This document shows positions 1-16,323 of a stretch of 21,478 nucleotides of DNA, piece by piece. The stretch covers positions 1 to 21,478 of IMG/VR virus record IMGVR_UViG_3300029624_000053. The stretch is one strand, 5' to 3'. Each line of letters opens with the position of its first letter. The first letter of the stretch is position 1. The DNA is from a virus. Both the position numbers and the translations under genes were made by a program. The notes under the pieces were generated by a model. It did no database searches. It was not told the origin of the DNA and saw nothing but the letters and a program-made list of their open reading frames with translations.

Positions 1-759
1 ACCGTGATCGGGAGCTTCGTTGATGAAGGTCTCGATCGAGTGATACGGCACCTTGAAAGCATTCGGGCCGGACGGCGGGCCGTAATAGCCCGTCGAAGGA
101 GACTTGAAGGTCGAGTAGACCCAGTTGAAGCGATCAACGAGCTCTTGAGATGTTTGCGCGAGAATGGTGATGACGCCGCCCGTGTTGTCCACCTGCCCTT
201 CGGAAGGATTGCTCAGGGAGACGTCGAGCGTGCCCGCCCCGGCCTCGCTGTCGATCAGGACAGTTACCGTTTTCTGCGTTTCGTTCGGCGCGAACGTCAG
301 CGTTCCGGAAGCTGGCGTGTAATCGCCCGGCTGCGCGGTGATCGCTACTGTCTGGTAGGAGACCGTAACCGCCTGGCTGTGCGTCCTGCTCATGGTGACC
401 GTCACCGAGGCCTGGCCTGCGGAGGGCGAAACGGTGACGTTGTTTACGGAGATGATCAGATCGCCGGGAGCGGTCCCGCCGGGGATGACCATGAGGCCAG
501 AGCCGTCAGCAATCACATATCCGGGCGATACCTCATAGATCGAGACCGTGAAGGCTTCCGAGGGGATGCTCTCCATATGGTCCCTGATCGGGACGACGAT
601 CTCCTTCGAGATTTCGCCGACACCAAAGGTCAGCGTTCCGCTTTGCGCCGTATAGTCCTCGCCCGCGGTCGCGGTGCCATCCAGCGTGCGATACTTGACG
701 GATACCGGCGCCTGCGGCGCCTCGCCAAGGCTGACCGTAAAGACTGCGCTTCGAGCCAT
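1..759 (-). CDS. Calx-beta fibre protein with GH48 cellulase domain (3' end beyond window)
   Basis: Only the first 253 codons are in the window; the frame is open at position 1. Residues 1-92 and about 98-200 are two Calx-beta-type beta-sandwich domains (motifs such as DGTATAGEDYTAQSGTLTF and PGDYTPASGTLTF). From about residue 203 the sequence matches the start of glycoside hydrolase family 48: RFNWVYSTFKSPSTGYYG, then PYHSIETFINEAPDHG at 238-253. In clostridial Cel48F the matching segment is PYHSIETLMVEAPDYG, with Glu44 in it and the catalytic acid Glu55 eleven residues later. Glu248 here corresponds to Glu44; the Glu55 equivalent would fall six codons past the edge. GH48 enzymes are processive cellobiohydrolases acting from reducing ends. 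The ATG overlaps the stop of the upstream fibre gene (TGATG), so the two are translationally coupled. No signal peptide is seen, as expected for a virion protein. The GH48 assignment is firm; integrity and activity of the catalytic domain cannot be judged here. Confidence 0.86.
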   Translation of the reverse strand, partial: MARSAVFTVSLGEAPQAPVSVKYRTLDGTATAGEDYTAQSGTLTFGVGEISKEIVVPIRDHMESIPSEAFTVSIYEVSPGYVIADGSGLMVIPGGTAPGDLIISVNNVTVSPSAGQASVTVTMSRTHSQAVTVSYQTVAITAQPGDYTPASGTLTFAPNETQKTVTVLIDSEAGAGTLDVSLSNPSEGQVDNTGGVITILAQTSQELVDRFNWVYSTFKSPSTGYYGPPSGPNAFKVPYHSIETFINEAPDHG

Positions 760-2360
760 CAGGCAATCTCCTCGAACCAGGCAAACGCGCCAGCCTCGAG
801 GGCGATGTACCCTGTGCCGTTGTTCGCAGCTTGCAGCTTCACCGTTCCGTTGCCCGTGCAGTTCAGGAACCCTTCGACAACAATGATCATCGACTTGTTG
901 GCTTCCGGAAACGACGGGAAGAGAATGTCCGTGGCGAATTCCGTCACGTCCACCTTGCGCGGGCCATCGTTGTCAGCGCCGGCGAAAGAGAGGGCGAGAA
1001 GCCGCTTTCCGGCCGTAGCGGAGAGGGACAGCTTGAGACCGATTGAGGTCGACCCGGCTTTTACAGGCAAGATCATTTTCACCCAGTAGAGCTTGCCGGC
1101 CGTCAGAGTCCAGTTGAAGCCCGTCACATCGGCCAGCGTGTCGCTCGAAATGCCGAAATCGGTATTCAGATCGACATGGTTGGTCGCGCGGTTGGCCGTC
1201 GTCCCGTCCTCACCGGCTGGACCTTGCGGTCCGGTCGGGCCTGCCGGGCCTGCGGGGCCGGTCGCGCCAGTCGCGCCCGCATCACCTTGCGGGCCGATGA
1301 TACCGGGGAGCTCAAGCCAGTGGGTGGTGTCGTCTTTCGGCTCGGTCGACGAGGAATAGGTGGTCGCGTCGGTCATAACCCAGAGGGCATCGCCGTCATC
1401 GGCCGAGTTTGTCGCTCGAACCGCCTCGCCCGGATCGTAGTCCCCTGCCTGCCATGCGCCGACATAGGCGAGAGGATCACCAACAGGCCCTTGCGGTCCG
1501 GTTGGCCCTGCGGGTCCCGTATCCCCCGCTGGGCCTTGCGCGCCGGTCGCTCCGTCGGCGCCATCCGCGCCTGCGGGGCCTTGCGGTCCGGCCGGGCCGG
1601 TATCTCCGGTATCACCTTTCGGGCCAGCCAGGCCTGCGTCACCGGCATCCCCCTTCGGTCCAGCCGGGCCCTGCGCGCCAGTCGGACCTGCGGGCGCCGA
1701 AAACTCGACCCAGTTTGTCGTATCGTCCTTCGGCTCTGTGGTCGATTGAAGCGGTGCGGCTCCCTTGAAGATGAAGACGCTGGCTTCGGCGCTGCCATTC
1801 AGCGCAGTCACATAGTCAGGAGCGCTGTAGGTGTTGCCGGACTGCCAGTTGCCGCGAAACGTCATGCTGGCGCCGGCGTCGCCCTTCGCCCCCTTCAGAT
1901 CAGCAACCCGAACGAGGTTGTTCCAAGTGCTGGTTCCCTTGTGCCGCCACTGAATCCATTCGGTTCCCTTCTGCATCTCTGGTTCGCGCCCATCGACACC
2001 ATCCGTGCCATCAACGCCAGGAGTTCCCTGCGCGGCGACAACATTCACGACGGCGCCGGTCTGCGAATTCTTCACGCGGATCGTGCAATCGATCGTCTGG
2101 GTCTTCAGGATTCCGTTGACGGGCGGATCGAGCTTGATGCTGAAGGTTTTGCCGGGCGTGGTGGTCGCATAGACGGTGATGGAGATCGTCTTTTCCGTTT
2201 CGCCCGGCAGAAAGGTCACCTCGCCCTTGGTGTACAGAAAGTCGACACCGGCAACGGCTGTGCCGTTTTTCGTCTCGTACTTGACGACAATGGTTTCCTG
2301 CCGCGCTTCGGCGAGCGTAATGACGAATACCGCTTGGGACGATCCGTTGAGATCAGGCAT
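759..2360 (-). CDS. Collagen-like phage fibre protein with N-terminal Calx-beta domain
   Basis: 533 residues. Residues 8-97 form a Calx-beta domain resembling the first domain of the next gene (KNGTAVAGVDF against LDGTATAGEDY). After this come collagen Gly-X-Y tracts (main ones about residues 223-294 and 353-386) interrupted by two related modules of about 55 residues that end in TTEPKDDTTNWVEF and STEPKDDTTHWLEL. Similar WxxGxxY-containing modules occur in many tail fibres. Residues about 388-533 form a non-repetitive C-terminal domain ending WFEEIA, the usual place for a trimer head or receptor-binding tip. Collagen-like tracts in phage fibres form trimeric stalks. The start lies 4 bp after the GH5 gene stop, with AGGAG upstream. 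It is probably a virion fibre or spacer that projects from the particle between the two cellulase genes; the exact receptor is unknown. Confidence 0.88.
   Translation of the reverse strand: MPDLNGSSQAVFVITLAEARQETIVVKYETKNGTAVAGVDFLYTKGEVTFLPGETEKTISITVYATTTPGKTFSIKLDPPVNGILKTQTIDCTIRVKNSQTGAVVNVVAAQGTPGVDGTDGVDGREPEMQKGTEWIQWRHKGTSTWNNLVRVADLKGAKGDAGASMTFRGNWQSGNTYSAPDYVTALNGSAEASVFIFKGAAPLQSTTEPKDDTTNWVEFSAPAGPTGAQGPAGPKGDAGDAGLAGPKGDTGDTGPAGPQGPAGADGADGATGAQGPAGDTGPAGPTGPQGPVGDPLAYVGAWQAGDYDPGEAVRATNSADDGDALWVMTDATTYSSSTEPKDDTTHWLELPGIIGPQGDAGATGATGPAGPAGPTGPQGPAGEDGTTANRATNHVDLNTDFGISSDTLADVTGFNWTLTAGKLYWVKMILPVKAGSTSIGLKLSLSATAGKRLLALSFAGADNDGPRKVDVTEFATDILFPSFPEANKSMIIVVEGFLNCTGNGTVKLQAANNGTGYIALEAGAFAWFEEIA
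1203..1304 (-). repeat. Collagen-like Gly-X-Y tract, second block
   Basis: Encodes residues 353-386 of the fibre protein, an uninterrupted G-X-Y run rich in GPAGP and GATG. The DNA is a degenerate 9-bp-periodic repeat. Confidence 0.85.
1479..1694 (-). repeat. Collagen-like Gly-X-Y tract, main block
   Basis: Encodes residues 223-294 of the fibre protein: about 24 consecutive G-X-Y triplets, many being GPAGP, GPKGD or GPQGP. This is the likely triple-helical stalk. Such tracts vary in length by slippage or recombination. Confidence 0.88.
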
Positions 2361-2364: not shown

Positions 2365-4341
2365 CTATGCTCCTGCTTCGCTGAGCAGATCAGCGATGAG
2401 ATTCAGTTTGGTTTGCTGGAGGGTGAGAAAATCCCCCTGAAGAATGCCGCCCGTGTCTGCGCTGATCGGCGGCCAGCCCCAGTAGGCGAAGCTGATACCC
2501 TTGTCGCCGGCGTCGAGATCGCTGGCGTCGTCATTGTCGAAATCGCCGTTGAGGTAGCGAACCAGTTCCGTCACCCACTGCGCCTCTTCAGTGCCGTGGG
2601 CGGATGCCGGCAGGGCAGAACCATCCGTGGCATCAACGCCGAAGTGCCCGCCAAACTCACCGATCCAGAGCGGGGCGATGTCTTGTTCAAAGATGAAGCC
2701 CCAATACTCGGTCCAGATCGGATAGAGGTTGTCCGGCCAGCCGACAGGCGGAGTTTGGCCGTTGTAGGCAAGCCACGACTGATTGCCGACAGACTGTCCA
2801 TACTCGTGAGGCGAATAGGCAACCTTGTTCGGAAGCGTCAGCGAAACCGGACGCGTAGCAACGCCCTTCAGATGGCCGCCCCACCAGTAATGGTCGTCGC
2901 CGTCATTGCCGACGCCCTCGACGAAAATGATCCAGTCCGGGGCGACCGCGTGGATAGCGTTCCCGCATCCCTCAGCGGCGGTTGCCCAGTCGGCCCAGGT
3001 AAGGTTGTGCGGCTCGTTGTGGATGTCCGCACCGACAACCGTCGGGTCATCGGCATATCGCGTTGCCAGCGTCACCCAGCTCGCATGCCAGTCGGCTGTC
3101 GTATAGCTGCCGTCCGTCGGGGCACCATCGGCGCCGGCACCAGACTGGCGGCGGTGATGATCGAGGACGACATAAAGCCCCACCTGCCCGCAATGACCGA
3201 TGATCGCATCGAAAATCTCGAGAACGGAAAGGTTTTCAAGGTCGGGATTGAGGAGAAAGTCGATGCCGCTGGGGGTCTGGCCAGCCGCTACAGTGTCACC
3301 AGAGAAAGCGAGGCGGATGCAGTTGAAGCCGACGCTCTTGATCTGGTCGATCATGGCCTTGTAATTGCGCGCCCAGAGCCCGTGCGGAACATGATTTGTC
3401 CCCTCAGCACCGAACCAGTTCACGGATTTCAGGCGGACAGCGTTCGACTGCGCGTCAACAAACTGGTTTCCGGATATCGACAGACGGGAAAGCGCTACTG
3501 GGACGGCTGTTGCGGTGCCGAACAGGGACACAGTCGACGGGCCGGAGCCGGCATTGGAAGCAATCGTGACCGAACCGTTGCGCGTGCCGGCGGCGGTCGG
3601 CTCGAAGGTGACGTCGACGGAAATGCTGGCATTCGGAAGAATGGGGTTTCCGGGTGTGTAGGTCGTAGAAGCCGAGTAGTCACCGTTGGCGGTAATGCTG
3701 TCGATGTAGAGCGATCCCGTACCGATATTGGTGATCGTGAAGGAGAGCGCATCGGACACATCGTCGACTTCGGTCGACGGAAACGACAGCGAGGTGTTGT
3801 CGATGCTCGTTATCGCCTCAAGGACCGGGTCGGAATCGATGCGAATGACGCCATCCGAAATCGTGACGGAAATCTGGTCCGGCTCGGACGAGTCACCATC
3901 CCCGACATACACGTCGCCCGCTTCCGCGAACATTTCGTAGAAATCCGAGACGCCATAGGTGATGAGCATGAAGGAGACGATCTTTCGCTTGCCATCGGTG
4001 GTTTCAAAACGGACGTGAACCCAGTGCTGGCCGCGATCCAGCCCACCAGCGAGCCAGATCATGACGCCAGTGTCTGCGTATCGGACTTTCGAGACGTATA
4101 GGTTCGCCGGCTCTGCATAGGCATCGGCAGCAGAAACGGACTCGTCCGGCTCGAGCCAGCGCTTCAGGTCAATGAAATAGTCGAGGTGATCCTCGGCATT
4201 CTTGTGTTCAACATCGAACTGATAGGGTCCGGTCGAGCGCACGCGACGGTGCTTGCGCACGGGCAAGTCCGCCTCGGTGATCGGCTCACCAATGGTGAGC
4301 ACGTCATCAGAGATAATGGGGACGGGTGCGAATTCGGGCAC
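2365..4341 (-). CDS. GH5 endoglucanase fused to a phage fiber-tail adaptor domain
   Basis: 658 residues, GTG start with GAAAGG eight bases upstream; it overlaps the upstream adaptor gene by 35 bp. Residues about 40-130 resemble the phage fiber-tail adaptor fold (DLKRWLEPDESV, then MIWLAGGLDRGQHWVHVRFE and TTDGKRKIVSF). Residues about 178-277 are a choice-of-anchor-D or hydin-like beta domain (SFTITNIGTGSLYIDSI, FGTATA). Residues about 284-658 are a complete GH5 cellulase close to the actinobacterial E1 type (subfamily 1): NWFGAEGTNHVPHGLW, Arg343 in IRL, acid/base Glu443 in DIHNEPHN, His512 and Tyr514 in SPHEYG, nucleophile Glu562 in WIGEFGG. All expected catalytic residues are present. The family hydrolyses internal beta-1,4-glucosidic bonds of cellulose. 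No signal peptide is seen and the N-terminus is phage-type, so a virion-bound depolymerase is inferred. It stands two genes before a GH48 gene. Confidence 0.93.
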   Translation of the reverse strand: MPEFAPVPIISDDVLTIGEPITEADLPVRKHRRVRSTGPYQFDVEHKNAEDHLDYFIDLKRWLEPDESVSAADAYAEPANLYVSKVRYADTGVMIWLAGGLDRGQHWVHVRFETTDGKRKIVSFMLITYGVSDFYEMFAEAGDVYVGDGDSSEPDQISVTISDGVIRIDSDPVLEAITSIDNTSLSFPSTEVDDVSDALSFTITNIGTGSLYIDSITANGDYSASTTYTPGNPILPNASISVDVTFEPTAAGTRNGSVTIASNAGSGPSTVSLFGTATAVPVALSRLSISGNQFVDAQSNAVRLKSVNWFGAEGTNHVPHGLWARNYKAMIDQIKSVGFNCIRLAFSGDTVAAGQTPSGIDFLLNPDLENLSVLEIFDAIIGHCGQVGLYVVLDHHRRQSGAGADGAPTDGSYTTADWHASWVTLATRYADDPTVVGADIHNEPHNLTWADWATAAEGCGNAIHAVAPDWIIFVEGVGNDGDDHYWWGGHLKGVATRPVSLTLPNKVAYSPHEYGQSVGNQSWLAYNGQTPPVGWPDNLYPIWTEYWGFIFEQDIAPLWIGEFGGHFGVDATDGSALPASAHGTEEAQWVTELVRYLNGDFDNDDASDLDAGDKGISFAYWGWPPISADTGGILQGDFLTLQQTKLNLIADLLSEAGA

Positions 4342-4957
4342 GCTGCTGGCCTTTCACGTTGAAATTCGCATTCCGGTCAATCGCCTCCCGGAAGAGAAGG
4401 CGACTGCGAGCGGCTTTGTGCGGATCGGTGTAGGTCTGTCCAGGCAGCTCGAGCATTTCTGCGAGCGCGCCGGCGGCGATAATTTCAGCGAAATGGTCGA
4501 AGAGAAAATCCGGCAGTATATTCGTGTCCTGCGACGGCTTCAGGATCATCGACACTGAAAGGCGGCCTGCCGAATAGGGATAGACACGGATCGTGTCGAA
4601 GCTCTCCTGCACGAGATACTCGGGGGCACCTTCAGGCACCGCATTGTCGGTGGTCCCGCCCGTGAACAGGCGCATTCGCGGAACCATGCCGAGATCAGCG
4701 GCCTGACGGGCGGTGATCGGCGTCAACGGGCGATCGTCAAACCAGGCTGCCTCGATCTTGTGAAGAACCGCCTCGCTCGGCAGTGCGAGAGGGGCGAAGG
4801 CCTCGACCGAGATATCGATATCGCTGGTTTCTCGCCAGCAGCTTGTCCGCTCACAAAATGTGCGGGCAGCCTGCCGGACATACTGCTCTGAAACAGGGTC
4901 GGGGCAGGACGGCGCATGCGGGCGGACGAACCTCAGAAAATCGCGCAACTCGCTCAT
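4307..4957 (-). CDS. Putative head-tail adaptor or virion protein, unknown family
   Basis: 216 residues. I do not recognise a named domain. The N-terminus (SELRDFLRFVRPHAPSCPDP, then ARTFCERTSCWR) is of a kind seen next to adaptor genes in alphaproteobacterial phages. The ATG overlaps the stop of the DUF6682-like gene by 4 bp (ATGA), so the two are probably translated together and act in the same structure. No membrane segment or signal peptide. Its position after the head genes and before the fibres suggests a connector or tail-hub component; this is inferred from context only. Confidence 0.78.
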   Translation of the reverse strand: MSELRDFLRFVRPHAPSCPDPVSEQYVRQAARTFCERTSCWRETSDIDISVEAFAPLALPSEAVLHKIEAAWFDDRPLTPITARQAADLGMVPRMRLFTGGTTDNAVPEGAPEYLVQESFDTIRVYPYSAGRLSVSMILKPSQDTNILPDFLFDHFAEIIAAGALAEMLELPGQTYTDPHKAARSRLLFREAIDRNANFNVKGQQRARIRTRPHYL

Positions 4958-5655
4958 GCGGCCGCCTCCCCGCTCGGCTTCCGGTTCGGGTTTTTCGCCA
5001 TGTCGTTGGCGATCTTGAATCCGACAGCGTTGGCGAAAGCCTGATAGTGCGTGGCGCCACGTGCGGCGTTCGCGGAGAATTGCGCGTCCTTGATGAAAGC
5101 GCGGTAGCAGACATAGTCGACCAGGGCGCCGCGGTAGATATCCGGCAGGGCGAGGACGGTCGTGTAGGTTGCAATGTTGTCCGGCGTCGGCGAGGCCAGC
5201 ACATCGGCCGGCAGTTGGGATGCGACCAATTCGACGCGACCCGTTCCGTCGTTACCAGGGTAGACATAGAAGCTGCGCGGATCGGCTTCATCAAAAACGA
5301 CGTGACGCACTGTCTTCTCGAACGGGACATAGACGGAGTCGTGCCAATCGGACATCTGCGCGTCGAGAATATCTCGATCAATGACGGTGATCGCTGCACC
5401 GCTGGACCGCGCGTCGGTCTTCAGGTTCCGGCGTACGCGCAGAAGATAGTGGTAGGCAGACGGAAGTGTCTGGAGCGTTCCCTCAACGAGGGTGTGAGCG
5501 AAAGTCTTGCTGCTCGCTTCCGGCTTTTGCAGAACGACTTCGCGCATGCCGTCGTTCAGCCAGACGCGAAGCTCGTCAAGCGTCCATCGTACAGAGTCCT
5601 CATCATTGAGAACTCGCCTTGCCCGCTCCAGCACTTCGCGCGCGACCATGGTCAT
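4954..5655 (-). CDS. DUF6682-like phage adaptor protein
   Basis: 233 residues. The N-terminus (REVLERARRVLNDEDSVRWT, then DELRVWLNDGMREVV) and the overall pattern resemble the DUF6682 family of phage proteins found between capsid and tail genes, thought to be head-to-tail adaptors. ATG at 5655 is used here; ATG at 5649 is an alternative, and neither has a strong Shine-Dalgarno sequence. The start lies 5 bp after the preceding gene, and the stop overlaps the next gene by 4 bp. The family match is from memory of the sequence pattern; the adaptor role is inferred mainly from gene order. Confidence 0.8.
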   Translation of the reverse strand: MTMVAREVLERARRVLNDEDSVRWTLDELRVWLNDGMREVVLQKPEASSKTFAHTLVEGTLQTLPSAYHYLLRVRRNLKTDARSSGAAITVIDRDILDAQMSDWHDSVYVPFEKTVRHVVFDEADPRSFYVYPGNDGTGRVELVASQLPADVLASPTPDNIATYTTVLALPDIYRGALVDYVCYRAFIKDAQFSANAARGATHYQAFANAVGFKIANDMAKNPNRKPSGEAAA

Positions 5656-5660
5656 GACGA

Positions 5661-6119
5661 TTACTCTGCATTGCTGTCTTCGACGGCCGACAGAATGCGC
5701 TCGACAGACCAGCGACCATCCGGCGCCTTGCCGAATTTTTCCGTGAAAAGGTCGACGGCCGCCTTCCGATCGCCAGTCAGCTTTGCCGCCTCTTCGTCGT
5801 TCACTTCATCCTCTTCGAACTCTTCACGTTCCTCGGCCTCTTCCGGCTGCTCGAAATTTCCCGAATCGTCGGACTTCTCGCCTTCTTCAGGCTCTTCCCG
5901 CTCTTTCGGGTTCGGGCCGGGCTTCGATTTGGGCTGGATCGCACCCGCATCGACGTAGGGCCTATAGCCTTCAGGCAGGCTCAGGAACCGGCTGAGGTGG
6001 TCTTGGTCGTCCACGTCACAGACCAGCTTCCCGTTTTCGAGGAGTTCGAAGTCATAGCTTGCGCCATCTTCGAAGGTGACGTTGAGTTTCGACCGCGGCT
6101 GGCGGCAAACGATGCGCAT
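5661..6119 (-). CDS. Small acidic protein of the head module, unknown
   Basis: 152 residues. An N-terminal segment of about 65 residues reads as a small beta domain (IVCRQPRSKLNVTFEDGASY). A low-complexity acidic linker follows (residues about 75-110, Glu/Asp/Pro-rich) and then a short helical C-terminus (KAAVDLFTEKFGKAPDGRWS). No recognised family. It lies between the putative decoration gene and the DUF6682-like gene and is probably a minor head or completion protein. The acidic linker biases any charge-based guess at function. Confidence 0.75.
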   Translation of the reverse strand: MRIVCRQPRSKLNVTFEDGASYDFELLENGKLVCDVDDQDHLSRFLSLPEGYRPYVDAGAIQPKSKPGPNPKEREEPEEGEKSDDSGNFEQPEEAEEREEFEEDEVNDEEAAKLTGDRKAAVDLFTEKFGKAPDGRWSVERILSAVEDSNAE

Positions 6120-6158
6120 GGCGACAATGCCCCGTGTGTTTGAGGTTGAACGGGCGAA

Positions 6159-6180
6159 AGGCCGCCTCGAGGGGCGGCCT
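6159..6180 (-). terminator. Hairpin terminator after the decoration-protein gene
   Basis: A perfect 8-bp GC-only-ended inverted repeat, AGGCCGCC with GGCGGCCT around a 6-nt loop, sits 6 bp past the gene stop. On the minus strand the 3' arm is followed by TTTCG, a short U-run. It could partly terminate leftward transcription, lowering expression of adaptor and fibre genes relative to capsid genes. Confidence 0.55.
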
Positions 6181-6185
6181 CACGC

Positions 6186-6635
6186 TTACATGTGATAGGT
6201 GATGACCAGCTTGAGCTTCTTGGTCGCCGCGCCGGTCACGTCTGCGGAAAGCTTCACGCCGATGCCGCGATGCTTGTCGGACGGAGCGATTGCGCGAACC
6301 GCCGCAACAGTGGCGGCCTGCTCTCCCTCGTCACACACGACATCGTTGAAGATGAGGGCGGTCGTCAGAGCGCGCGTCGCGTCTGCCGCATCGCCCGCCG
6401 CGCCGGTCATGATGCCGATATCGGCAGTCACGTCGGTGAGCGTGCCCGCCGGAACCAGCGTGGCACCAGCGAGCTTGCAGTGCGCCGGCAGGGTGCCGAT
6501 CTCGAGAATGTCGGTCAGCGCCGTGAAGTCGGCGGAAAGCACGAAGTCGAATTCGGCAACGTGCAGATCGCCAGCCTTGTACGGCGTATCGATGGTCTTG
6601 AAGAGCTTTCCGTGATCGGACTGAAAGATAGTCAT
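6186..6635 (-). CDS. Putative head decoration or stabilisation protein
   Basis: 149 residues, directly downstream of the major capsid gene, the usual place for a decoration protein. AGGAGA lies about 7 bases before the ATG at 6635. The sequence is rich in Ala, Thr and Asp with alternating beta-type segments (FVLSADFTALTDILEIGTLP, HRGIGVKLSADVTG), compatible with a compact beta protein. No named family is recognised, so the role rests on size, composition and position. A GC-rich 6-bp inverted repeat (6660-6665 with 6673-6678, no U-run) lies between it and the capsid gene. Confidence 0.77.
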   Translation of the reverse strand: MTIFQSDHGKLFKTIDTPYKAGDLHVAEFDFVLSADFTALTDILEIGTLPAHCKLAGATLVPAGTLTDVTADIGIMTGAAGDAADATRALTTALIFNDVVCDEGEQAATVAAVRAIAPSDKHRGIGVKLSADVTGAATKKLKLVITYHM

Positions 6636-6710
6636 GTCATGTCTCCTGATGAGCCGTGAGGCGGGTCAGCGGCCCGCCACCAGAGGCAGCGAGCCGCTCA
6701 ACTCAGCCGA

Positions 6711-7805
6711 TTAGTTCGGGTCCTTGGCGTAGGTGTCGATCGTCAGCACGCCGAAGTCGTGGCCGTTGAAGCGGGTCTTCTTGAACCCGTAGATGAGGCC
6801 GGCCGTGATCACGATTTCGTTGCCACGGTCTTCCTTCTCCTCGAACCAGTCGAGACGCATGCCCTTGCCGCGCGTGCCATAGGCGCAGGCACCTGCCTGG
6901 CGACCAAGAAACAGCGCTCGCGACGCCGGCAGGTTGGTGCCCGTCCCGTAGTCCGAGAACCGGATCACGTTTTCATGGACGTGCAGCACAGCGTTGTTGA
7001 CCATACCGAGACCGCCGCGGAAGATCGGGCTTTTCCGGCCCTCGGCTGCGGCTGCGGCCTTCTGGATTTCCAGCCACTGGGTAGCGGTGGTGCCAGTCCG
7101 CATGTCATGCGCCTGGAACGGGGACATGACGACGACGTAGTGCTTCTCGCCCATGATGTTGACGGGAAGCATGTTGGCGGTCGTCGGATCAGTTGCCCGC
7201 ATCATCTGCGCCTTGACGCAAGCGCGCTCGATGAGTTCGACAGACATCTTGTCTTCAGCCGCGATGGTTGCCTTGGAGGCCGCATCGCCGCCGTAGATGA
7301 TGTGTGCGGCATCGGGAGCCTGAATGGCGTTGGCAAAGCCGGTCCACCCGACAGGCTCGTAGAAGTCTTCGTTGATGCCGCGCGCGCCGGACAGATAGAT
7401 GAAGTGCAGCTCGTCGAGATACTTCGCCCAGTAGTCGCCGAGCCGGTCGCGAGCCACCATGCGAAGATCGTGGATGGTGCGCTTGTTGCTCATGCGGCCA
7501 CCAGCGGACACGCCGGAACGCATCTGGTCGATGACGATTTCGTCGGTGAAGAACTTCAGAGCTTCTTCCTTGCCGCGGAGCCGTTCGTCGCCGACGGTCG
7601 GCCGTCCGCGAAGCTGCACACTCAGGTCGAACTGGATGCGGTCACCCGCATCGCTTTCGAGTTCCGTCTTGCGCTGAATGACACTGTTCTCGCCATTTCC
7701 TACAAAACGGCGATCCCAGTAGGATTTTGCGTTGATGTCGCGGGCAAGTTCCGCGGACCACTTCTTGACGGCGAGTGCATCGCCGGCGGGCACATTGGTT
7801 TGCAT
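6711..7805 (-). CDS. Major capsid protein, N4-gp56 family
   Basis: 364 residues from the ATG at 7805, which has AAAGGA at proper spacing. A GTG at 7844 would add 13 residues but has no ribosome binding site and lies inside a leader hairpin. The segment around residues 55-135 fits the N4-gp56 capsid family: GRPTVGDERLRGKEEALKFF, IVIDQMRSGVSAGGRMSNKR, TIHDLRMVARDRLGDYWAKY, LDELHFIYLSGARG. The C-terminal part (NNAVLHVHENVIRF, ACAYGTRGKGMRLDWFEEKE, ITAGLIYGFKKTRFNG) also fits. This protein builds the HK97-fold shell. It follows the scaffold and CsrA-like genes and precedes the putative decoration gene. Its translation is likely controlled by the hairpin described separately. Confidence 0.95.
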   Translation of the reverse strand: MQTNVPAGDALAVKKWSAELARDINAKSYWDRRFVGNGENSVIQRKTELESDAGDRIQFDLSVQLRGRPTVGDERLRGKEEALKFFTDEIVIDQMRSGVSAGGRMSNKRTIHDLRMVARDRLGDYWAKYLDELHFIYLSGARGINEDFYEPVGWTGFANAIQAPDAAHIIYGGDAASKATIAAEDKMSVELIERACVKAQMMRATDPTTANMLPVNIMGEKHYVVVMSPFQAHDMRTGTTATQWLEIQKAAAAAEGRKSPIFRGGLGMVNNAVLHVHENVIRFSDYGTGTNLPASRALFLGRQAGACAYGTRGKGMRLDWFEEKEDRGNEIVITAGLIYGFKKTRFNGHDFGVLTIDTYAKDPN

Positions 7806-7808
7806 AAT

Positions 7809-7848
7809 GGACGTTCCTTTGCGGTTGAGTTTCCGCATAGGCACGTCC
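7809..7848 (-). promoter_or_regulatory. SD-sequestering hairpin in the capsid mRNA leader
   Basis: In the minus-strand transcript, the 16 nt from 7848 to 7833 can pair with the 16 nt from 7824 to 7809 around an 8-nt A-rich loop. 14 of 16 positions are Watson-Crick pairs, with two 1x1 mismatches (G-A and A-A). The 3' arm contains the AAAGGA ribosome binding site of the capsid gene and ends 3 nt before its AUG. A GGA also occurs at the top of the 5' arm and another at its base. Confidence 0.72.
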
Positions 7849-7863
7849 TGCGCCTGCTGCTGG

Positions 7864-7891
7864 CCTATATTTACCGGACTTCAGCGATCAA
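7864..7891 (-). promoter_or_regulatory. Possible weak promoter for the capsid gene
   Basis: On the minus strand TTGATC (7891-7886) and TATAGG (7869-7864) are separated by 16 bp, each matching four of six consensus bases. It overlaps the end of the CsrA-like gene. It could boost capsid transcription, but such matches also arise by chance. Confidence 0.25.
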
Positions 7892-8090
7892 ACAAAGCGC
7901 TTTTTTCCGTTTCCATTTCTCCTTCAGGGACTTCAGGCTCGGAAACCGGATTCCGGTCTATAACCGTCCGAACGTCAGCAGCTATTTCCAGGCGCGTGCG
8001 GCGCCCGGATTTATGCTTTGACGTTACTGTCGCAGAGCCGACGATTCGAATTGAATCGCCAGGCTCCAGATCAAGGACGATTTTTCCCAC
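7881..8090 (-). CDS. CsrA-like small RNA-binding protein
   Basis: 69 residues, GTG start with AGGAG six bases upstream, directly after the scaffold stop. Residues 10-47 align without gaps to the CsrA core from the TVT strand on: GDSIRI for GETLMI, and ATVTSKHKSGRR then TRLEIAADVRTVIDR for VTVTVLGVKGNQ then VRIGVNAPKEVAVHR. The conserved Gly and the final Arg (Arg44 of CsrA, needed for RNA binding) are kept. CsrA dimers bind GGA motifs in mRNA leaders and usually block translation. The C-terminal tail of about 22 residues is acidic and unrelated. Position between scaffold and capsid suggests control of nearby late messages. The identity is a short-sequence match and could instead be a small head protein with a similar beta pattern. 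Confidence 0.6.
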   Translation of the reverse strand: MGKIVLDLEPGDSIRIVGSATVTSKHKSGRRTRLEIAADVRTVIDRNPVSEPEVPEGEMETEKSALFDR

Positions 8091-8098
8091 TCGAGCTC

Positions 8099-9106
8099 CT
8101 ATCGCTCCAGAAACCGGAGCCGCTCGTCTTCACTCAGACGGTCGTACTGATTGTTGAATTCCATGGGGTCGTTCTGTAGCAGCCGCTCGAGAGTCTGAAA
8201 TTTCGTCTCGTTCGGATCGTCCATATCGCTCGACGGCATGTCCGCGAGCGTCGGCGGCATTTCAGGCTTCTTGGGCTTCTTGTTTTCCGGTGCATCCTTC
8301 TTCGGCGCAGGATCGGTTTTTTCCTCCGCAGGAACATTCTTTTTGCGCTTTTCGTCGCCCGGCTCGGCGTCGGTCGATGAGCCAAACGCGCTGCTGAATT
8401 GGTCGTAAGCCAGTTGAAGAAGCTTGCGGTTCGAATAGCGCTGGTTTTCCTCGTCGGCGGTCACGCGTCGGACGACGCTATCGAACGCGTCGAACACCAC
8501 TGTATTACCGAGGCGCTCTTTGAGGTCCGGATGGTCGTTCAAAAAGTCTTGGATGTCGCTTGCCCAGCGCTCAGCCTCCTGAGACTCACGGAGTTCCGTC
8601 GCCATCTCGGCCTTGCGCTTCTGCCATTCGAGGTCTGACCGCTCCTCCGCGATCTTGTCTAGGCCGGCGCGCAGTTCCTTCGGGTCGATGTCGCCAACGT
8701 CGGCCTGCTCGGTCAGCTCATCGGCGCGCTTCTTCAGGTCGTCGAGCCGCTGCTGATAGTCGTCCGGCAGATCAGCCTTCAGCGGATCGCGGAGAGGCTG
8801 ACGAAGGTCAGACGGGTCGTCGTGGTTTTCGTCCGCCTTGTCGTCCGCCTTGTCGTCCGCCTTGTCGTCCGCTTCGTCCGCCTTGTCGGTCTCGTCGTCT
8901 TCTTCGTCCGCCTCGTCGCCTTTTTCGCTGTCGGTCTCGTCGCCTTTTTCGCTGTCGGTCTTCTTTTCGGCGCTCTCTTCTCCTTCATCTTCGGAAAGCG
9001 CGGCAATTTCTTCCTCGGTCATACCCTCGAAGTCATCATCCTCAAGGGCATCTGTTTCATCATCCGGGATTACCGGATCGGGGATGCTGGTCTCTTTCTT
9101 GCTCAT
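8099..9106 (-). CDS. Scaffolding protein
   Basis: 335 residues, between portal and capsid genes, the standard scaffold position. It is strongly acidic and helical: residues about 10-100 are Asp/Glu-rich with tandem ADDK and DSEKGDE repeats, about 110-240 are predicted coiled or helical (YQQRLDDLKKRADELTEQAD, RWASDIQDFLNDHPDLKERL), then a Lys/Pro/Glu linker and a conserved-looking C-terminus (NDPMEFNNQYDRLSEDERLR). Scaffolds of this type hold capsid protein during procapsid assembly and leave afterwards; the capsid-binding part is often the C-terminus. No protease is seen in the window. Its stop abuts the ribosome binding site of the CsrA-like gene. Confidence 0.85.
   Translation of the reverse strand: MSKKETSIPDPVIPDDETDALEDDDFEGMTEEEIAALSEDEGEESAEKKTDSEKGDETDSEKGDEADEEDDETDKADEADDKADDKADDKADENHDDPSDLRQPLRDPLKADLPDDYQQRLDDLKKRADELTEQADVGDIDPKELRAGLDKIAEERSDLEWQKRKAEMATELRESQEAERWASDIQDFLNDHPDLKERLGNTVVFDAFDSVVRRVTADEENQRYSNRKLLQLAYDQFSSAFGSSTDAEPGDEKRKKNVPAEEKTDPAPKKDAPENKKPKKPEMPPTLADMPSSDMDDPNETKFQTLERLLQNDPMEFNNQYDRLSEDERLRFLER
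8831..8878 (-). repeat. 12-bp tandem repeat in the scaffold gene
   Basis: Three perfect copies of GTCCGCCTTGTC (plus-strand sense; 8831, 8843 and 8855) and one variant copy encode repeated ADDK units. In-frame slippage here would change linker length without breaking the gene. Confidence 0.9.
8912..8959 (-). repeat. 24-bp tandem repeat in the scaffold gene
   Basis: Two perfect 24-bp copies (8912-8935 and 8936-8959) encode two DSEKGDE units in the acidic N-terminal part. They appear to be a recent duplication. Confidence 0.9.
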
Positions 9107-9113
9107 TTCGTCC

Positions 9114-11399
9114 TCACACGGGCTGTGGTTCTGCCGGCATCGGTTGTTGCTCGGCTTCTTGCTGCTGGGTTGCGGCCTGCGCGGCCATCTGCTCGATCTG
9201 CTGGGCCTTCTGGTCGATTGCCGCGGCTTCCTGCTTTTCGGTCTCGCTCACATAGCCGCTGTCTTTCAGCAGGGCGTCCGCGACGGGGACGAGGTCCGGC
9301 GCCTGCATCATGGCCAGCGCTATTTCCAGCGCGGCCATCTTCACGTCCATGTTGTCGCCAGGAACGCTTGCCAGAACCTTCTGGATATCGGCTTCGGACT
9401 TGGAGGCGGCGGCGCGCTTCTGGAGTGCCGATGCTTCCTTCTCCTCCACCTGCGCAATCTGCATTCGCTTCTGAAGCTCGGCGGCTTCTGCTTCCTGCCG
9501 CTGGCGGGCGAGCTCTTCCGGTGTCGGTTCGTCCGCGTCCGGATCGCTCATGCCGGTCTGCTTCCGGATGCGAGCGACAAGCTCCTGACGGGCCGGGATG
9601 TCCATGGTCTCGACAAGCAGGTCGAGTGTGATAAGCACCACCTGAGGCGCCACCGGAGCCAGCTTCGACATGAGGTCGAGCAACTCCTCGGTCTGGGCTT
9701 GCCGGATGGTCGCGCGCCAGTCCTGCTCGGAAATAATGAAGTCGGCCTTGGTCGACACGATGTCGTTTTCGGGAAGGCCGTCGTTCACCTCGAGGTATTC
9801 CGGCGTACCGCGCTCGTTGGTGATCCGGAACGCTTTTTTCTCGTCGATGAATTGCTCGATCAGAGACAGCATCTTCGCGCCGTGTACCTGCTTCGCGAAG
9901 CGAAGGTTCTCGAAGTAGTGCGCCGTCGCAAGCTGCCCCTGATCCTGCCGGGCGGTGATAGCGCGCCCTGAGGAAGCATTGGTCTCGCGGCCGAGATTTT
10001 CGTCGGTCACGCCGCCAACCTGCTGGATCATGGCAATGGAACGCGCCATGAAATTCTCGTGCGAAACGTCGACACCGCGATCGGCATCGATCTGGAGTTC
10101 ATACCCCTTCTTTTTCACGATGATGGCGTCCGGCCGGGCCACCTCTTCTGCAAAATCGTCCAGGTCTTCGACCGCGTTCTCATCCATGATCACTTTTGAA
10201 GAGTTCAAAATATGGATGATCTTTGACGCGGCTTTGTTCACGTACCTGTTGATGTCTTTCACCGAACGAATGAATCCGTAGGGCATTCCATCTCTGCCGC
10301 GCCGGTTTCCCCAGAGCGGTGTGAACGGGAAGCGGTTGTGCCTGTAGGGGCTTTCGCCCAGATAGAGCAGGCCGGTAATCGTCATGATTGCAACATGGAC
10401 CCGCATGGACGGGCGCTCGATGATCTCGGCGCGACCTTCTTCGATCTCTTTGCGGTGGCCGGGCGATGCTTCATCAAAAAGCTCGCCGGAGAAATCGCCG
10501 CCCTGCATCTTGCGAACGGGCGTAACGGTTCGAAACCACACCTCGATGATGCGGAGGCGCTCGCGCTCGAAGCGAACATCGTCTCGACTGGCGCGGCTAC
10601 GGGATCCGTTTTCGAGATATTCCTCGGTCGAGTCCATCACCTCGTCGCCATATTCAGACTCGGTGAAATAGTCGTCGGACTCGCGCGTTGCGGTCTCCAC
10701 CACACTGGCGCGCTGGGGAAACCAGGCCTTGGCCATGTCGGCATCGACCCACTTCGTTCGGATTACATACCGGGCGTCGGATAGGTCGAGTTCCGTGCAT
10801 GCGCTGTCCCACAGCATGTTGCGCCAGGATTCGTAGCGGTCGCGGATCAGTTCGCCGTCCGAGTCGTTGCGGACACAGGATTCGAGCCATCCAATGCCGA
10901 CCTTGACGGCATCCTCAAAGGCGCGGCTTTCGTGGAATGGGCTGAAGTTGACGTCGCTGAGATACTTCATCAGCTGCGTCTTGCTCTGCGCTGGCTTCGA
11001 CGCGTCCTTCCGGCGAGGCAAGATGCGAAAGTCGGTGCGCGAGCGCTTCTGGCTGTTGATCACCCAATTCACGGCGGTCTGCGTGATGTTGTAGGTGAGC
11101 GCCATTTGCCCGCGTCCCTCGACGATGGCCTTGTCCTCGGGCGTCCATTGCAGGTTGTCGTAGAAATCCTCGTCTTCGGCCTGCTCGACGCGGTTGTCGG
11201 CCTGCCGGTCAAGCTCCTGCTGATAGTAGGATAGCAGCTTGCGGTGGAATTCTTGCGACTCTTCGGTGTCCAGCCTGTTGACCGCACGACGGCTGGCCGG
11301 CGCGGACGACGCAGGCAGACGGTCGATTGCCGTCGGGTTTTTTGCCTTGCCGGCAAAGCTCATGCCGCGACCGGCGTAGTCGTCGTCAGCATCAGACAC
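9114..11399 (-). CDS. Portal protein, P22-like
   Basis: 761 residues from the GTG at 11399, which overlaps the upstream stop by 8 bp (GTGTCTGA) and has GGAG about 10 bases before it; ATG at 11363 is a weaker alternative. Length and order fit the P22 gp1 portal family (about 725 residues): QALTYNITQTAVNW-type core near the N-terminus (MALTYNITQTAVNWVINSQK), WRNMLWDSACTELDLSDARY, PFTPLWGNRRGRDGMPYGFI, RSVKDINRYVNKAASKII, NASSGRAITARQDQGQLAT. The last 170 residues are helical and Gln/Ala-rich, matching the portal barrel. The dodecameric portal is the DNA entry point and seat of the packaging motor. It lies after two small genes that follow the terminase, and upstream of the scaffold. Confidence 0.94.
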   Translation of the reverse strand: MSDADDDYAGRGMSFAGKAKNPTAIDRLPASSAPASRRAVNRLDTEESQEFHRKLLSYYQQELDRQADNRVEQAEDEDFYDNLQWTPEDKAIVEGRGQMALTYNITQTAVNWVINSQKRSRTDFRILPRRKDASKPAQSKTQLMKYLSDVNFSPFHESRAFEDAVKVGIGWLESCVRNDSDGELIRDRYESWRNMLWDSACTELDLSDARYVIRTKWVDADMAKAWFPQRASVVETATRESDDYFTESEYGDEVMDSTEEYLENGSRSRASRDDVRFERERLRIIEVWFRTVTPVRKMQGGDFSGELFDEASPGHRKEIEEGRAEIIERPSMRVHVAIMTITGLLYLGESPYRHNRFPFTPLWGNRRGRDGMPYGFIRSVKDINRYVNKAASKIIHILNSSKVIMDENAVEDLDDFAEEVARPDAIIVKKKGYELQIDADRGVDVSHENFMARSIAMIQQVGGVTDENLGRETNASSGRAITARQDQGQLATAHYFENLRFAKQVHGAKMLSLIEQFIDEKKAFRITNERGTPEYLEVNDGLPENDIVSTKADFIISEQDWRATIRQAQTEELLDLMSKLAPVAPQVVLITLDLLVETMDIPARQELVARIRKQTGMSDPDADEPTPEELARQRQEAEAAELQKRMQIAQVEEKEASALQKRAAASKSEADIQKVLASVPGDNMDVKMAALEIALAMMQAPDLVPVADALLKDSGYVSETEKQEAAAIDQKAQQIEQMAAQAATQQQEAEQQPMPAEPQPV

Positions 11400-11823
11400 G
11401 GTCGAGAATCTCCGCGTAGTGCTCGGTGCCATCCTCATCGACACGCAGGGCGTCGGCGACAACCTCAAGGCCGTCTTTCGGCATGGGCGGCATGGCGACA
11501 AGGTCGCCAAGGTGATTGCGGATCAGCGACGAGATGCGCATGCACGTGTAGACGTTCTCGGCCGACACGTTCAGCGCCTTCGCGAAGGTATAGGATTGCC
11601 GGGCGGCATGGACCGGATCACCGGACTCTTCTGACCATATCCAGGCGGCGCTGAGCGGCACGACGCACGGCGTCACGCGCTCGAAGCCTTCGGCATGCGA
11701 CGGGACGAGCACAAGGGCTGGCTCCGGCGCATCATTGCCGATCAGCCATGTGCCGATGACGGTCAGGTCACCTTTGACGCGCTTGAAGTGCGCCTTCGAA
11801 AGATCAAGAGCCGGCCGGGTCAT
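11392..11823 (-). CDS. Hypothetical protein between terminase and portal
   Basis: 143 residues. Three ATG codons stand in a row (11829, 11826, 11823); the third is chosen because AAGGGA then lies at usual spacing. No recognised family. The sequence starts with a small beta-rich part (HFKRVKGDLTVIGTWLIGND, EPALVLVPSHAEGFERVTPC) and ends acidic. It contains PCVVPLSAAWIWSEESGDP, which suggests a compact domain. It overlaps both neighbours (20 bp with the upstream gene, 8 bp with the portal) and is probably part of the packaging operon. No function is proposed. Confidence 0.75.
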   Translation of the reverse strand: MTRPALDLSKAHFKRVKGDLTVIGTWLIGNDAPEPALVLVPSHAEGFERVTPCVVPLSAAWIWSEESGDPVHAARQSYTFAKALNVSAENVYTCMRISSLIRNHLGDLVAMPPMPKDGLEVVADALRVDEDGTEHYAEILDRV

Positions 11824-12130
11824 CATCATTCCCTTGGGCGGCGGGTCTCAGCATCTCGTCGCAGTAGGTGAGGAGCGAGGCCTTCGCGTGATCCAGCATT
11901 CCGATCAGGCCGAAAAGGTCACCGGGATGGCGGACTTTGAAGATCATCTCGTGGATATTCTGGCTGTCGACGTCGATGCCGACGAAAGTCCCGGCGATCT
12001 GCTCACCTTTCTCGATTCGGTCGGCATAGTTGCGCAGCTTTTCCGCGATAAAGGTATTGTATTCAGCCTCCTCCCGATCAAAGACTTGCTTCTCTTCGAG
12101 GACGGGGTGATTTACGAGGTTCGACTCCAT
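11804..12130 (-). CDS. Hypothetical helical protein after terminase
   Basis: 108 residues from the ATG at 12130, which has AAGGAAA upstream. An ATG at 12181 overlapping the terminase stop (ATGA) would give 125 residues, but the added part looks non-coding. The protein is mostly helical and acidic (FDREEAEYNTFIAEKLRNYA, HPGDLFGLIGMLDHAKASLL). No family is recognised. It lies between the large terminase and portal genes of the packaging operon; its role is unknown. Confidence 0.74.
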   Translation of the reverse strand: MESNLVNHPVLEEKQVFDREEAEYNTFIAEKLRNYADRIEKGEQIAGTFVGIDVDSQNIHEMIFKVRHPGDLFGLIGMLDHAKASLLTYCDEMLRPAAQGNDDDPAGS

Positions 12131-12177
12131 TGGCGTTTCCTTTCCTTGGGTTGGGAGGGTGTCCAGTCGTCGGCTGC

Positions 12178-13794
12178 TCATGCGGCCATACCTCCGGGTC
12201 TGCGCCGGCGAGGGCGGAAGTTTCCGCCGCCGGGAGCGCGAATGAGCCGCTCTTCCTTGGCCTGCGCCCACTGGCGAAAGCTGTCAGCGGCTTCGGTGTG
12301 CTCGTCCTTGACCGGGCGATCCGTCCAGGCGCCGACGCGCTGGTTCCAGTCCTTGCGATACATGCCCAAATGCGCGATGCCGGCTTCGCAATAGGTCTCG
12401 TCGAACCAGGCCGACCCGAAATGTTTGCGCACGATCTGGATGCCGTGCTGCAGTTCGAGCACCCGCGGCACGACGACGAATTCCCATGTAGGCTGGAGGC
12501 TTGACAGCGCGTCGAGCGGCGACGAGACGCTTGATGCTTGCTGTCGCCGTTGCTCTGCATCGTGCGGGAGGAAGTGCTGCCCCCAGACGTAGCCGAGGTC
12601 CTGCATTTCCCGGACAAACCAGTCGTAGGGCTTGTCCCACCCCTCGATAAAAGCGATGAAATGGTCGAGCGCACCTACCTGCTGGTGCAGCCAGATCGCC
12701 GTGCCATCGCTGGCGCCGATGTCCCAGAACGAGTTGACGGGAATGCCATCGCGATGGGGAACGCGTGTGATGCGGCCGTCTGCGCGGGCGCGCGACAGCT
12801 GGAAGGCAAAATAGGCACCTTCAATCGCGACTTTGAATGGCTCGTCGATATCGGTCGGGTACTCCTGCCACATCTTGTGCGGGTCGCCTGAGAAATCGGC
12901 GTCGCGGGTCTTGATGTACCAGGCGCGCTGGGCATCGGAGAGCGTGATGCCAAGTCGCTGCTCTGCGCCGTCGAAATAGGCCTTGTCTGTCGGCGTTACG
13001 ACGACTTGGGCCGGATCGAGGCGGTAATTAGGATCGCGGTGCCACGGGTAGAAATGCAGCCGGTAGTCGCGCTGGGTGAGCTCGGTCTTCGCATCGGCCA
13101 AAGCCTTGGCCCTCTGCGTCATGCGGTAGAATTCGCCGTCCTGCCCCTTTGCTGTGCTTTCGATAACCGCGATTCCATTAAGCGGCACGGCGGGCAGCGA
13201 GCCGGTAATGATCTCCTCAGCCTTCAGCGGATGGCTTGAGCAAATCTTGCCGAATTCCGAGACGTGCAGGCGATGGATGGTGCCCGAGCGGGCCGAAACG
13301 GTGACGGAAATCGACGAGTTGTTCTGAAATTCGATCTCAAGCTCGGTTTTCTTCCGGACCGGGCAGCCATTGCGCACCGCAGCGGGAAGGCGGTCATAAG
13401 CGAAAACGATCTTGTCGCGGAAAATGCGGGAGGCCTTGTTCAGGTCTTCGGCGATCATGGCGCAGCGCTGATCGCTGACGAAAAGCGCGTGGTCGAGCCA
13501 GAGCAGCGCTATCAGCGTGGTGAACCCGAGCTGCCGCGCCTTCAGGATGATGTTTCGGTACCAGAGATTGTCCAGGAGTTCGATTTGCGCGACGTTCGGC
13601 CGAAATGGGATGATAGCGCCTTCATCGTCCTCGTTCTCCTTCGTCATGATCCAGTAGAGCTGCCCAGACGTGATCCGCCAGCGCGCATCGCCAAGACACC
13701 GCCTGAGGTCTTGTTCGCCCCTCGGCACATAGTCCGGCGGCAGCGATCCATATGAGACCGGCTGCTCGGGGATGGCGATGGCGGCGGCTCCCAT
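12178..13794 (-). CDS. terL: Terminase large subunit
   Basis: 538 residues. N-terminal ATPase: a deviant Walker A, KARQLGFTT (85-93), and a Walker B-type segment RLHVSEFG (175-182) with likely catalytic Glu180. C-terminal RNase H-like nuclease: Asp358 in SFWDIGASDGTA, Asp412 in HFLPHDA, and Asp504 in HTEAADSFRQWA, the usual three acidic positions. It packages DNA into the procapsid through the portal and cuts the concatemer. The ATG is 1 bp after the small-subunit stop. The ending is very basic (FRPRRRRPGG). The packaging type (headful or cohesive ends) cannot be read from the window. Confidence 0.95.
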   Translation of the reverse strand: MGAAAIAIPEQPVSYGSLPPDYVPRGEQDLRRCLGDARWRITSGQLYWIMTKENEDDEGAIIPFRPNVAQIELLDNLWYRNIILKARQLGFTTLIALLWLDHALFVSDQRCAMIAEDLNKASRIFRDKIVFAYDRLPAAVRNGCPVRKKTELEIEFQNNSSISVTVSARSGTIHRLHVSEFGKICSSHPLKAEEIITGSLPAVPLNGIAVIESTAKGQDGEFYRMTQRAKALADAKTELTQRDYRLHFYPWHRDPNYRLDPAQVVVTPTDKAYFDGAEQRLGITLSDAQRAWYIKTRDADFSGDPHKMWQEYPTDIDEPFKVAIEGAYFAFQLSRARADGRITRVPHRDGIPVNSFWDIGASDGTAIWLHQQVGALDHFIAFIEGWDKPYDWFVREMQDLGYVWGQHFLPHDAEQRRQQASSVSSPLDALSSLQPTWEFVVVPRVLELQHGIQIVRKHFGSAWFDETYCEAGIAHLGMYRKDWNQRVGAWTDRPVKDEHTEAADSFRQWAQAKEERLIRAPGGGNFRPRRRRPGGMAA

Positions 13795-13795
13795 C

Positions 13796-14317
13796 TCAGT
13801 GCCTCACTGGCACGGATGCCCGCATCGCCTGCACATCCCGCATGAAGCTCGTGAAGACATCGACGGTCTCTTCGGCGCTGGTCTCACGCCACATACCCAG
13901 ATGCTTGCCGAGCAATTCCAGAGCACGCAGCTTGTCCCAGCTTTTCACCTTCGTGATTGTGGCCGGAAAATCACCGTCGCCCTTCACGCTCGTTGCCTCG
14001 AACTGCGCGATTGTGGCGACAACGCTCTCGTCCATCTCGGTGATGGATTTCAGCCGGCCGTCCCCATGAAAAAACGCAGCGGGCGATCCGAAAGCGATGC
14101 GGGCGAGTTCTTCCAGCACGCGATCCGCTTTGATTGCGGTCCGTTCCGCCTGCGCGTCGCGCAAACGCGCGATTTCGGCGGCAACTTCTGGTTTTTTGAG
14201 GTTCTCGCTGCCTATCGCGTAAGCACTCGCTCTCGAATAGCCCGCACGAAGAGCCGCCTGCGTCGCATTCAGGTCGACGAGGTATTCTTCACAAAATCGT
14301 TGCTGCTTGGGCGTCAT
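13796..14317 (-). CDS. terS: Terminase small subunit
   Basis: 173 residues, Terminase_2-type. The N-terminus has the characteristic pattern MTPKQQRFCEEYLVDLNATQ then AALRAGYSRASAYAIGSENL, a helix-turn-helix that recognises the packaging site; the rest is oligomerisation and helical (WDKLRALELLGKHLGMW). It provides DNA recognition for the large subunit encoded immediately downstream. ATG at 14317 is taken as start; a TTG at 14323 has better spacing to GGAA and would add two residues. It is the first gene of the leftward late operon. Confidence 0.92.
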   Translation of the reverse strand: MTPKQQRFCEEYLVDLNATQAALRAGYSRASAYAIGSENLKKPEVAAEIARLRDAQAERTAIKADRVLEELARIAFGSPAAFFHGDGRLKSITEMDESVVATIAQFEATSVKGDGDFPATITKVKSWDKLRALELLGKHLGMWRETSAEETVDVFTSFMRDVQAMRASVPVRH

Positions 14318-14396
14318 AGACAATGCTTTTCCATGTCCGAGCGATGGTCAACACCATTTCGGATTGGAAAATATCATTGAAAAACGAGATAAAATA

Positions 14397-14412
14397 TCAG
14401 GACATTACCTGA
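14397..14412. promoter_or_regulatory. 16-bp palindrome upstream of terS, possible operator
   Basis: TCAGG-ACATTA-CCTGA is a perfect 5-bp inverted repeat with a 6-bp spacer, 80 bp before the terminase small-subunit start. It contains GACAT, a half-site also found in the promoter palindrome at 14560. Function is inferred only from symmetry and position. Confidence 0.35.
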
Positions 14413-14414
14413 AC

Positions 14415-14440
14415 AAAAAACCCGGCGCGTGAACGTCGGG
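14415..14440 (-). terminator. Intrinsic terminator for leftward transcripts before terS
   Basis: CCCGGCG (14421-14427) pairs with CGTCGGG (14434-14440), with one position that differs between the arms, around a 6-nt loop. On the minus strand the hairpin is followed by six U residues (14420-14415), the classic layout. The U-run lies only on the minus-strand side; on the plus strand only CTTT follows. Confidence 0.65.
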
Positions 14441-14518
14441 CTTTCTGCATTTGTTTTCGCGGCGAGCACGAGCGGCCGCGTGCCGCCTATATCGACGTCT
14501 GGCGCCCTGTGGCCTAGC

Positions 14519-14548
14519 CGAAAAAAACGCGACGATCTATTTTTTTCG
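14519..14548. repeat. A7/T7 inverted repeat upstream of the promoter
   Basis: CGAAAAAAA (14519-14527) and TTTTTTTCG (14540-14548) form a perfect 9-bp inverted repeat with a 12-bp spacer. The T-tract falls about 10 bp upstream of the -35 box, where an UP element would be. Tract centres are about two helical turns apart, so the DNA may be curved. Confidence 0.55.
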
Positions 14549-14557
14549 CCCTATCTG

Positions 14558-14586
14558 TTGACATTCTTATGTCTATGTCCTATATT
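14558..14586 (+). promoter_or_regulatory. Near-consensus sigma70 promoter
   Basis: TTGACA (14558-14563), 17-bp spacer, TATATT (14581-14586): 11 of 12 consensus bases at ideal spacing. Predicted start is near 14593, about 50 nt before the first plus-strand gene. It should be active with host polymerase at once after entry, or constitutively in a prophage. Confidence 0.85.
14560..14573. promoter_or_regulatory. Palindrome inside the promoter, possible operator
   Basis: GACAT-TCTT-ATGTC is a perfect 5-bp inverted repeat overlapping the -35 box and spacer; a second ATGTC follows at 14575-14579. A repressor bound here would block the promoter. The helix-turn-helix protein of the same operon is a possible binder. 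Confidence 0.4.
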
Positions 14587-14642
14587 TTAACCATGGACGG
14601 AGGGGAACAGTCCCCCCGATCAGGTCAAGAAAGGACCGGAAA

Positions 14643-16311: not shown

Positions 16312-16323
16312 CACGTTGCCTCC

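Follow-up and report, generated by a model that had tools for sequence, protein, structure and literature searches.

The question raised by this locus is how a gene for a cellulase-like enzyme came to stand among the tail genes of a phage, and what its product would do there. The window analysed here is an entire IMG/VR record (IMGVR_UViG_3300029624_000053; 21,478 bases), and from its gene content the virus is classed as a predicted short-tailed, Bcep22/Parlo-like podophage. Terminase subunits were recognised by Pfam and PHROGs, and the terminase large subunit (TerL), portal, major capsid protein and SU10 adaptors all had homologues in matching order in Bcep22/Parlo-like podophages, with identities of 46–54% for TerL and about 48–55% for the portal in comparison to Bcep22-like phages and the Parlo/PEp14/Itty13/PBC5 podophages. 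These genes were located as follows:

12178–13794, minus strand: terminase large subunit, with Bcep22-like relatives
9114–11510, minus strand: P22-like portal, nearest to those of Parlo, PEp14, Itty13 and PBC5
6711–7844, minus strand: major capsid protein (Phage_capsid_3, phrog_334)
4954–5655, minus strand: SU10-type adaptor (phrog_399)
4307–4957, minus strand: SU10-type adaptor / virion structural gene (phrog_437)

A second contig (L150; IMG contig 2806310599_000002) was 99.87% identical to window positions 5209–21478 and ends before the cellulase-like (GH5) gene. The phrog_437 gene shares 35 bases with the start of the GH5 gene, and the latter runs on the minus strand from a GTG start at 4341 to a stop ending at 2365, with GAAAGG at 4355–4350, 8 nt upstream of the GTG. 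Its product is composed of the following parts:

2365–4341, minus strand: tail protein gene, 658 aa, with a Gp77 adaptor, a choice-of-anchor-D/HYDIN Ig domain and a GH5 endoglucanase
3964–4203, minus strand: Gp77 fibre-tail adaptor domain, aa 47–126 (Pfam PF23148, E 1.9e-12)
3514–3801, minus strand: Ig-like HYDIN/DUF1573/choice-of-anchor-D domain, aa 181–276 (Pfam, NCBIfam)
2377–3495, minus strand: GH5 endoglucanase catalytic domain, aa 283–655 (Pfam PF00150)
3013–3015, minus strand: E443, predicted acid/base in the HNEP motif, invariant in alignments A1 and A3
2656–2658, minus strand: E562, predicted nucleophile in the GEFG motif, invariant in alignment A1

All four Pfam domains of the 658-aa protein exceeded their curated cut-offs, and the Pfam, PHROGs and NCBIfam domains together with AlphaFold folds confirmed the chimera of phage adaptor, hydin-like domain and GH5 enzyme described in a first-pass annotation of this DNA. 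Its view of the N-terminus as phage-type was likewise upheld by the Gp77 match, by a profile match of the adaptor domain to 8jou_D (3.8e-12) and by an AlphaFold model of aa 1–140, for which the only significant PDB match was 8jou_B, the fibre-tail-adaptor entry of phage GP4 (E 5e-6, TM-score 0.84 by target length, rmsd 1.6). The fold of window aa 47–126 thus resembles the GP4 gp77 adaptor, with the difference that the GP4 adaptor is a stand-alone chain of 93 residues and that of BcepIL02 a free-standing protein of 92 aa, whereas the adaptor in the window is fused to Ig-GH5. The middle region was detected as DUF1573 (aa 181–276, 4.9e-8) and as HYDIN Ig (aa 197–271, 1.8e-6), and the catalytic region as Cellulase/GH5 (PF00150) at aa 306–621 with an E-value of 1.4e-41 (143 bits vs a cut-off of 23.5). 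PDB sequence matches of the GH5 domain were led by CelE2 (8fc0; 6.6e-96) and E1 of Acidothermus cellulolyticus (1vrx/1ece; about 1e-79), both of which share its fold and active site at about 40–45% identity, and the AlphaFold model of the C-terminal part gave TM-scores of 0.89 to 8fc0 and 0.83 to 1ece (by target length). A chance match of the GH5 motifs was ruled out by the Pfam E-values and the E1 and CelE2 matches. The GH5 core, which we take to comprise two catalytic glutamates on strands 4 and 7 together with R, H, N, H, Y and W, was complete (R343, H396, N442, E443, H512, Y514, E562 and W621), and all eight residues were invariant in an alignment of ten phage GH5 domains, in agreement with the earlier description of an intact active site.

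The same position in related podophages is occupied by homologous genes. A tblastn search found 34 phage records with GH5. In 15 of them the match spanned 80% or more of the protein, with 41–45% identity in the best 13 of these long matches, and the GH5 domain of the window was 41–57% identical to those of other phages. Viral contigs scanned with the entire GH5 protein as a single sequence gave no match, the patterns probably being too strict; an alignment query did find matches. Parlo, LASTA, SJM3, SopranoGao, Pavtok and PEp14 carry, like the window, Gp77, Ig and GH5 after two SU10-type adaptors, with full-length identities of 41–45%. For LASTA and SJM3 the endoglucanase had already been proposed as a possible degrader of host exopolysaccharide (PMC10052179). 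The gene order SU10a-SU10b-[Gp77-Ig-GH5] was shared by Parlo, SJM3, Pavtok, PEp14 and Skulduggery, as well as by several metagenomic podophages. A Calx-beta fibre gene mostly comes next, and most of the named phages have an Ig domain between adaptor and GH5. Several proteins of the Parlo/LASTA/Pavtok type have an additional C-terminal part past GH5, and the hosts of these phages are gammaproteobacteria (Serratia, Klebsiella, Erwinia) in contrast to the probably alphaproteobacterial host of the window phage.

These relatives bear directly on the origin of the enzyme. The first-pass annotation had proposed that a phage fibre gene captured an actinobacterial-type cellulase of the E1 type through domain swapping, and such a capture, if recent, would fit the presence of E1 among the closest structures and the occurrence of the adaptor alone in BcepIL02. 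The likeness to E1 holds in that all listed motifs were found (NWFG 308, HGLW 320, NEPH 442, SPHEYG 510 and GEFGG 561) and the E1 match is strong, but CelE2 is closer and the tree sets the window apart from E1. In the phylogenetic analysis of GH5, a branch supported at 99/99.7 set apart 26 phage and prophage sequences, including that of the window, counted with three bacterial rows that fall within the clade set aside (L064, L070 and L114, the last two being long-branch sequences) and with the distant Skulduggery-type sequences (L014, L047) left out. E1 grouped with Streptomyces outside this clade, CelE2, mycobacterial and Reyranella GH5 sequences fell in other groups, and neither E1 nor CelE2 is a phage-type sequence. 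The bacterial rows had been found with phage-derived patterns and several branches are long. A clade of secreted host cellulases sharing the N-terminus of the window protein was not observed. Codon use was alike on both sides of the domain boundary (GC3 0.730 for aa 1–281 vs 0.718 for aa 284–655; Fisher p 0.79) and both parts fit the phage core genes, a lack of shift that argues against recent capture, as does the presence of the whole adaptor-Ig-GH5 architecture in several cultured phages (Parlo, LASTA/SJM3, SopranoGao, Pavtok, PEp14, Skulduggery). On the GH5 tree and codon use we therefore reject a recent actinobacterial capture, which we regard as hardly credible.

What stands of the domain-swapping proposal is modular assembly, seen in the stand-alone BcepIL02 adaptor and in other phage families, where homologous GH5 domains are attached to unrelated N-terminal parts. 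The Schitoviridae phages S6 and Pastis grouped with Hena1 and SNUABM_01 (Vequintavirinae; 100/99) rather than with the Schitoviridae phages Kuerle and EaP8, which makes transfer of the GH5 domain from one phage family to another probable. Judged from sequence, GH5 appears to be a long-standing phage enzyme lineage that has been re-anchored on different virion adaptors, and the comparisons support fusion and re-anchoring among phages as its apparent history. One of the bacterial rows within the clade, a chromosomal copy in Rhizobium bangladeshense (L064 7869–9128), has HNEP changed to HNKP and is joined to an apparent decarboxylase/acetolactate-synthase-like N-terminus; it looks like a decayed phage-type cellulase. 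Two other species, Rhizobium leguminosarum and R. ruizarguesonis, carry related GH5 genes on plasmids.

The genes downstream of the GH5 gene include a second putative hydrolase, a neighbour absent from the first-pass annotation:

759–2360, minus strand: fibre gene, 533 aa, with N-terminal Calx-beta (PF03160) and collagen-like repeats (PF01391)
1–759, minus strand: second hydrolase gene, truncated at the edge of the contig, with two Calx-beta domains (PF03160, 9e-27) and the start of GH48 (PF02011, 6.3e-7)
1–135, minus strand: first 45 aa of the GH48 domain (aa 209–253, ending PYHSIETFINEAPDHG), over cut-off at PF02011 profile positions 3–41

The 45-aa stretch also matched solved GH48 structures (E about 5e-4). 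The contig end cuts the gene ahead of the catalytic acid motif, and no extension of the truncated GH48 turned up when viral contigs were scanned for exact matches to the left end of this contig; that the gene is complete and active is what we infer, and it may be defective. Calx-beta heads the fibre genes and every phage GH48 gene seen in any family (window 759–2360 and 1–759; L010, L015, L025), and may be a common attachment module for both kinds of gene.

The nearest described parallel is Erwinia phage S6 (Schitoviridae), whose gp095 (Ig and GH5) degrades a carboxymethylcellulose-type model substrate and adjoins gp094, a Calx-beta and GH48 protein (PMC9544554); our own domain analysis of both proteins agreed. 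Bacterial cellulose is the first receptor of S6 and is required for infection (PMC9544554), and S6 is again listed as cellulose dependent in a 2026 paper (PMC13101476). Like S6, the window has a GH5 protein with a choice-of-anchor-D Ig domain near a Calx-beta and GH48 protein, here represented by 45 N-terminal aa of GH48. The two differ in that S6 has no Gp77 match and a different virion core, and in that its GH5 and GH48 genes are adjacent whereas one collagen-like fibre gene lies between them in the window. Parlo/LASTA/Pavtok-type phages gave Calx-beta matches only and no GH48 match, in contrast to the GH48 start of the window.

Within the podophage lineage of the window, a prophage of Rhodoblastus acidophilus DSM 142 (L065) and an IMG isolate contig (L025) likewise have GH5 followed by GH48, separated by a Calx fibre gene; GH48 is full length in both and their GH5 domains are about 55% identical to that of the window. 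No description of either was found in the literature searched. The adaptor and Ig-GH5 form two overlapping ORFs in L065 in comparison to one fused gene in the window, and this split form, overlapping by a few bases, was observed at L065 6632–9131 and L026 8632–11131. Full-length GH48 occurred in 17 records of the phage collection, all of them Erwinia phages and all 17 also with GH5. Among viral and genome contigs, GH48 near GH5 was found in L025 and L065, in two contigs whose genes are arranged much as in S6 (L031 and L038), in a prophage of Azotobacter (L063, with L023 near-identical to it) and in a further type of phage (L040). When 385 genomes of the Rhodoblastus class were searched for GH48, only Rhodoblastus itself had a full-length match. 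In a smaller tree with few outgroups, phage GH48 sequences were separate from bacterial ones (100/100), and L025 fell next to the S6/Hena1 group. BcsA above the TIGR03030 cut-off was present in both of the named hosts of GH5 and GH48 prophages, Rhodoblastus acidophilus and Azotobacter beijerinckii; BcsG (phosphoethanolamine transferase) was not detected in the Rhodoblastus or Azotobacter hosts.

Taken with these comparisons, the locus most likely encodes a virion-bound endoglucanase that, with a presumed GH48 partner, would cut host cellulose during adsorption. The Gp77 domain would dock the protein on the tail, a location that we infer from gene order and the GP4 structure, and the Ig domain would act as a spacer. 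GH5, a predicted endo-beta-1,4-glucanase, would then bind and cut bacterial cellulose made by the host and so open a path to the cell surface, while the downstream genes would provide a fibre with collagen-like repeats and a GH48 anchored by Calx-beta that could form an endo/exo pair with GH5. By analogy with S6, cellulose is likely to be the first receptor. Against this reading, the Klebsiella and Serratia relatives carry GH5 only, and GH48 is therefore not essential to the scheme; GH5 enzymes can also act on other beta-glucans.

Two other targets for the enzymes have to be weighed. GH5 includes the classical endoglucanases of plant cellulose, and related genes lie on the Rhizobium plasmids mentioned above, which would suit an auxiliary metabolic role directed at plant or environmental cellulose instead of the host coat. 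We find this very unlikely, as the N-terminus is a tail adaptor in which no signal-peptide-like stretch was seen on inspection by eye, the gene sits inside the tail module and S6 uses host cellulose as its receptor. The enzyme could instead act on another host exopolysaccharide, such as a mixed-linkage glucan, or now serve as a binding module. The identity of 41–57% between the GH5 domain of the window and those of other phages permits a substrate shift, and the Rhizobium bangladeshense gene illustrates that copies of the phage clade can decay. This too seems unlikely in view of the catalytic residues invariant among phage GH5 domains and of the presumed GH48 partner, whose family is to our knowledge specific to cellulose. 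The activity of the S6 homologue on a carboxymethylcellulose-type substrate also speaks for cellulose (PMC9544554).

The host of the window phage is suggested to be an alphaproteobacterium by one gene at the far end of the contig:

20629–21183, minus strand: GcrA-like regulator (PF07750, E 4.3e-29)

The gene scores under the cut-off of the GcrA equivalog model in NCBIfam, and this hint is therefore only suggestive. The regulator lies in a cluster (18382–21183, minus strand) with genes for a C5 methylase and an N6/N4 methylase and with an MT-A70 gene. Host GcrA reads methylated DNA, and the cluster could possibly be a phage-borne methylation and cell-cycle module. Two of its ORFs overlap in different frames (18408–19301 and 18382–19416, both minus strand), and both look like real genes because each matches its own phage DNA-methyltransferase family (phrog_1008, 6e-37; phrog_363, 6e-77).

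In summary, much of this system is familiar, being already known in a few phages, and what is new is GH48 in the Bcep22/Parlo-like lineage and a probable alphaproteobacterial host. More broadly, GH5 and GH48 may form a cellulose-breaching cassette that crosses unrelated phage families (Schitoviridae, Vequintavirinae, Bcep22-like podophages, an Azotobacter tailed prophage and another podovirus type) on the tail anchor of each, with GH48 kept where host cellulose is unmodified and crystalline; this interpretation is a tentative one that we hold with some doubt. The association of GH48 with unmodified cellulose is a lead and not a result, because it draws on two hosts, Rhodoblastus and Azotobacter, and a published statement on Erwinia (PMC9544554), and because Pavtok and PEp14, which are also Erwinia phages, have GH5 only.

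Phages that breach cellulose were known from Erwinia. The present findings add to them a podophage lineage whose probable host belongs to the alphaproteobacteria, which include important cellulose makers, and indicate that phage GH5 and GH48 form their own clades in the sampled trees, on different tail anchors. If the tentative cassette interpretation is true, it would offer a testable tie between phage enzymes and host cellulose chemistry and may provide candidate enzymes against cellulose biofilms.
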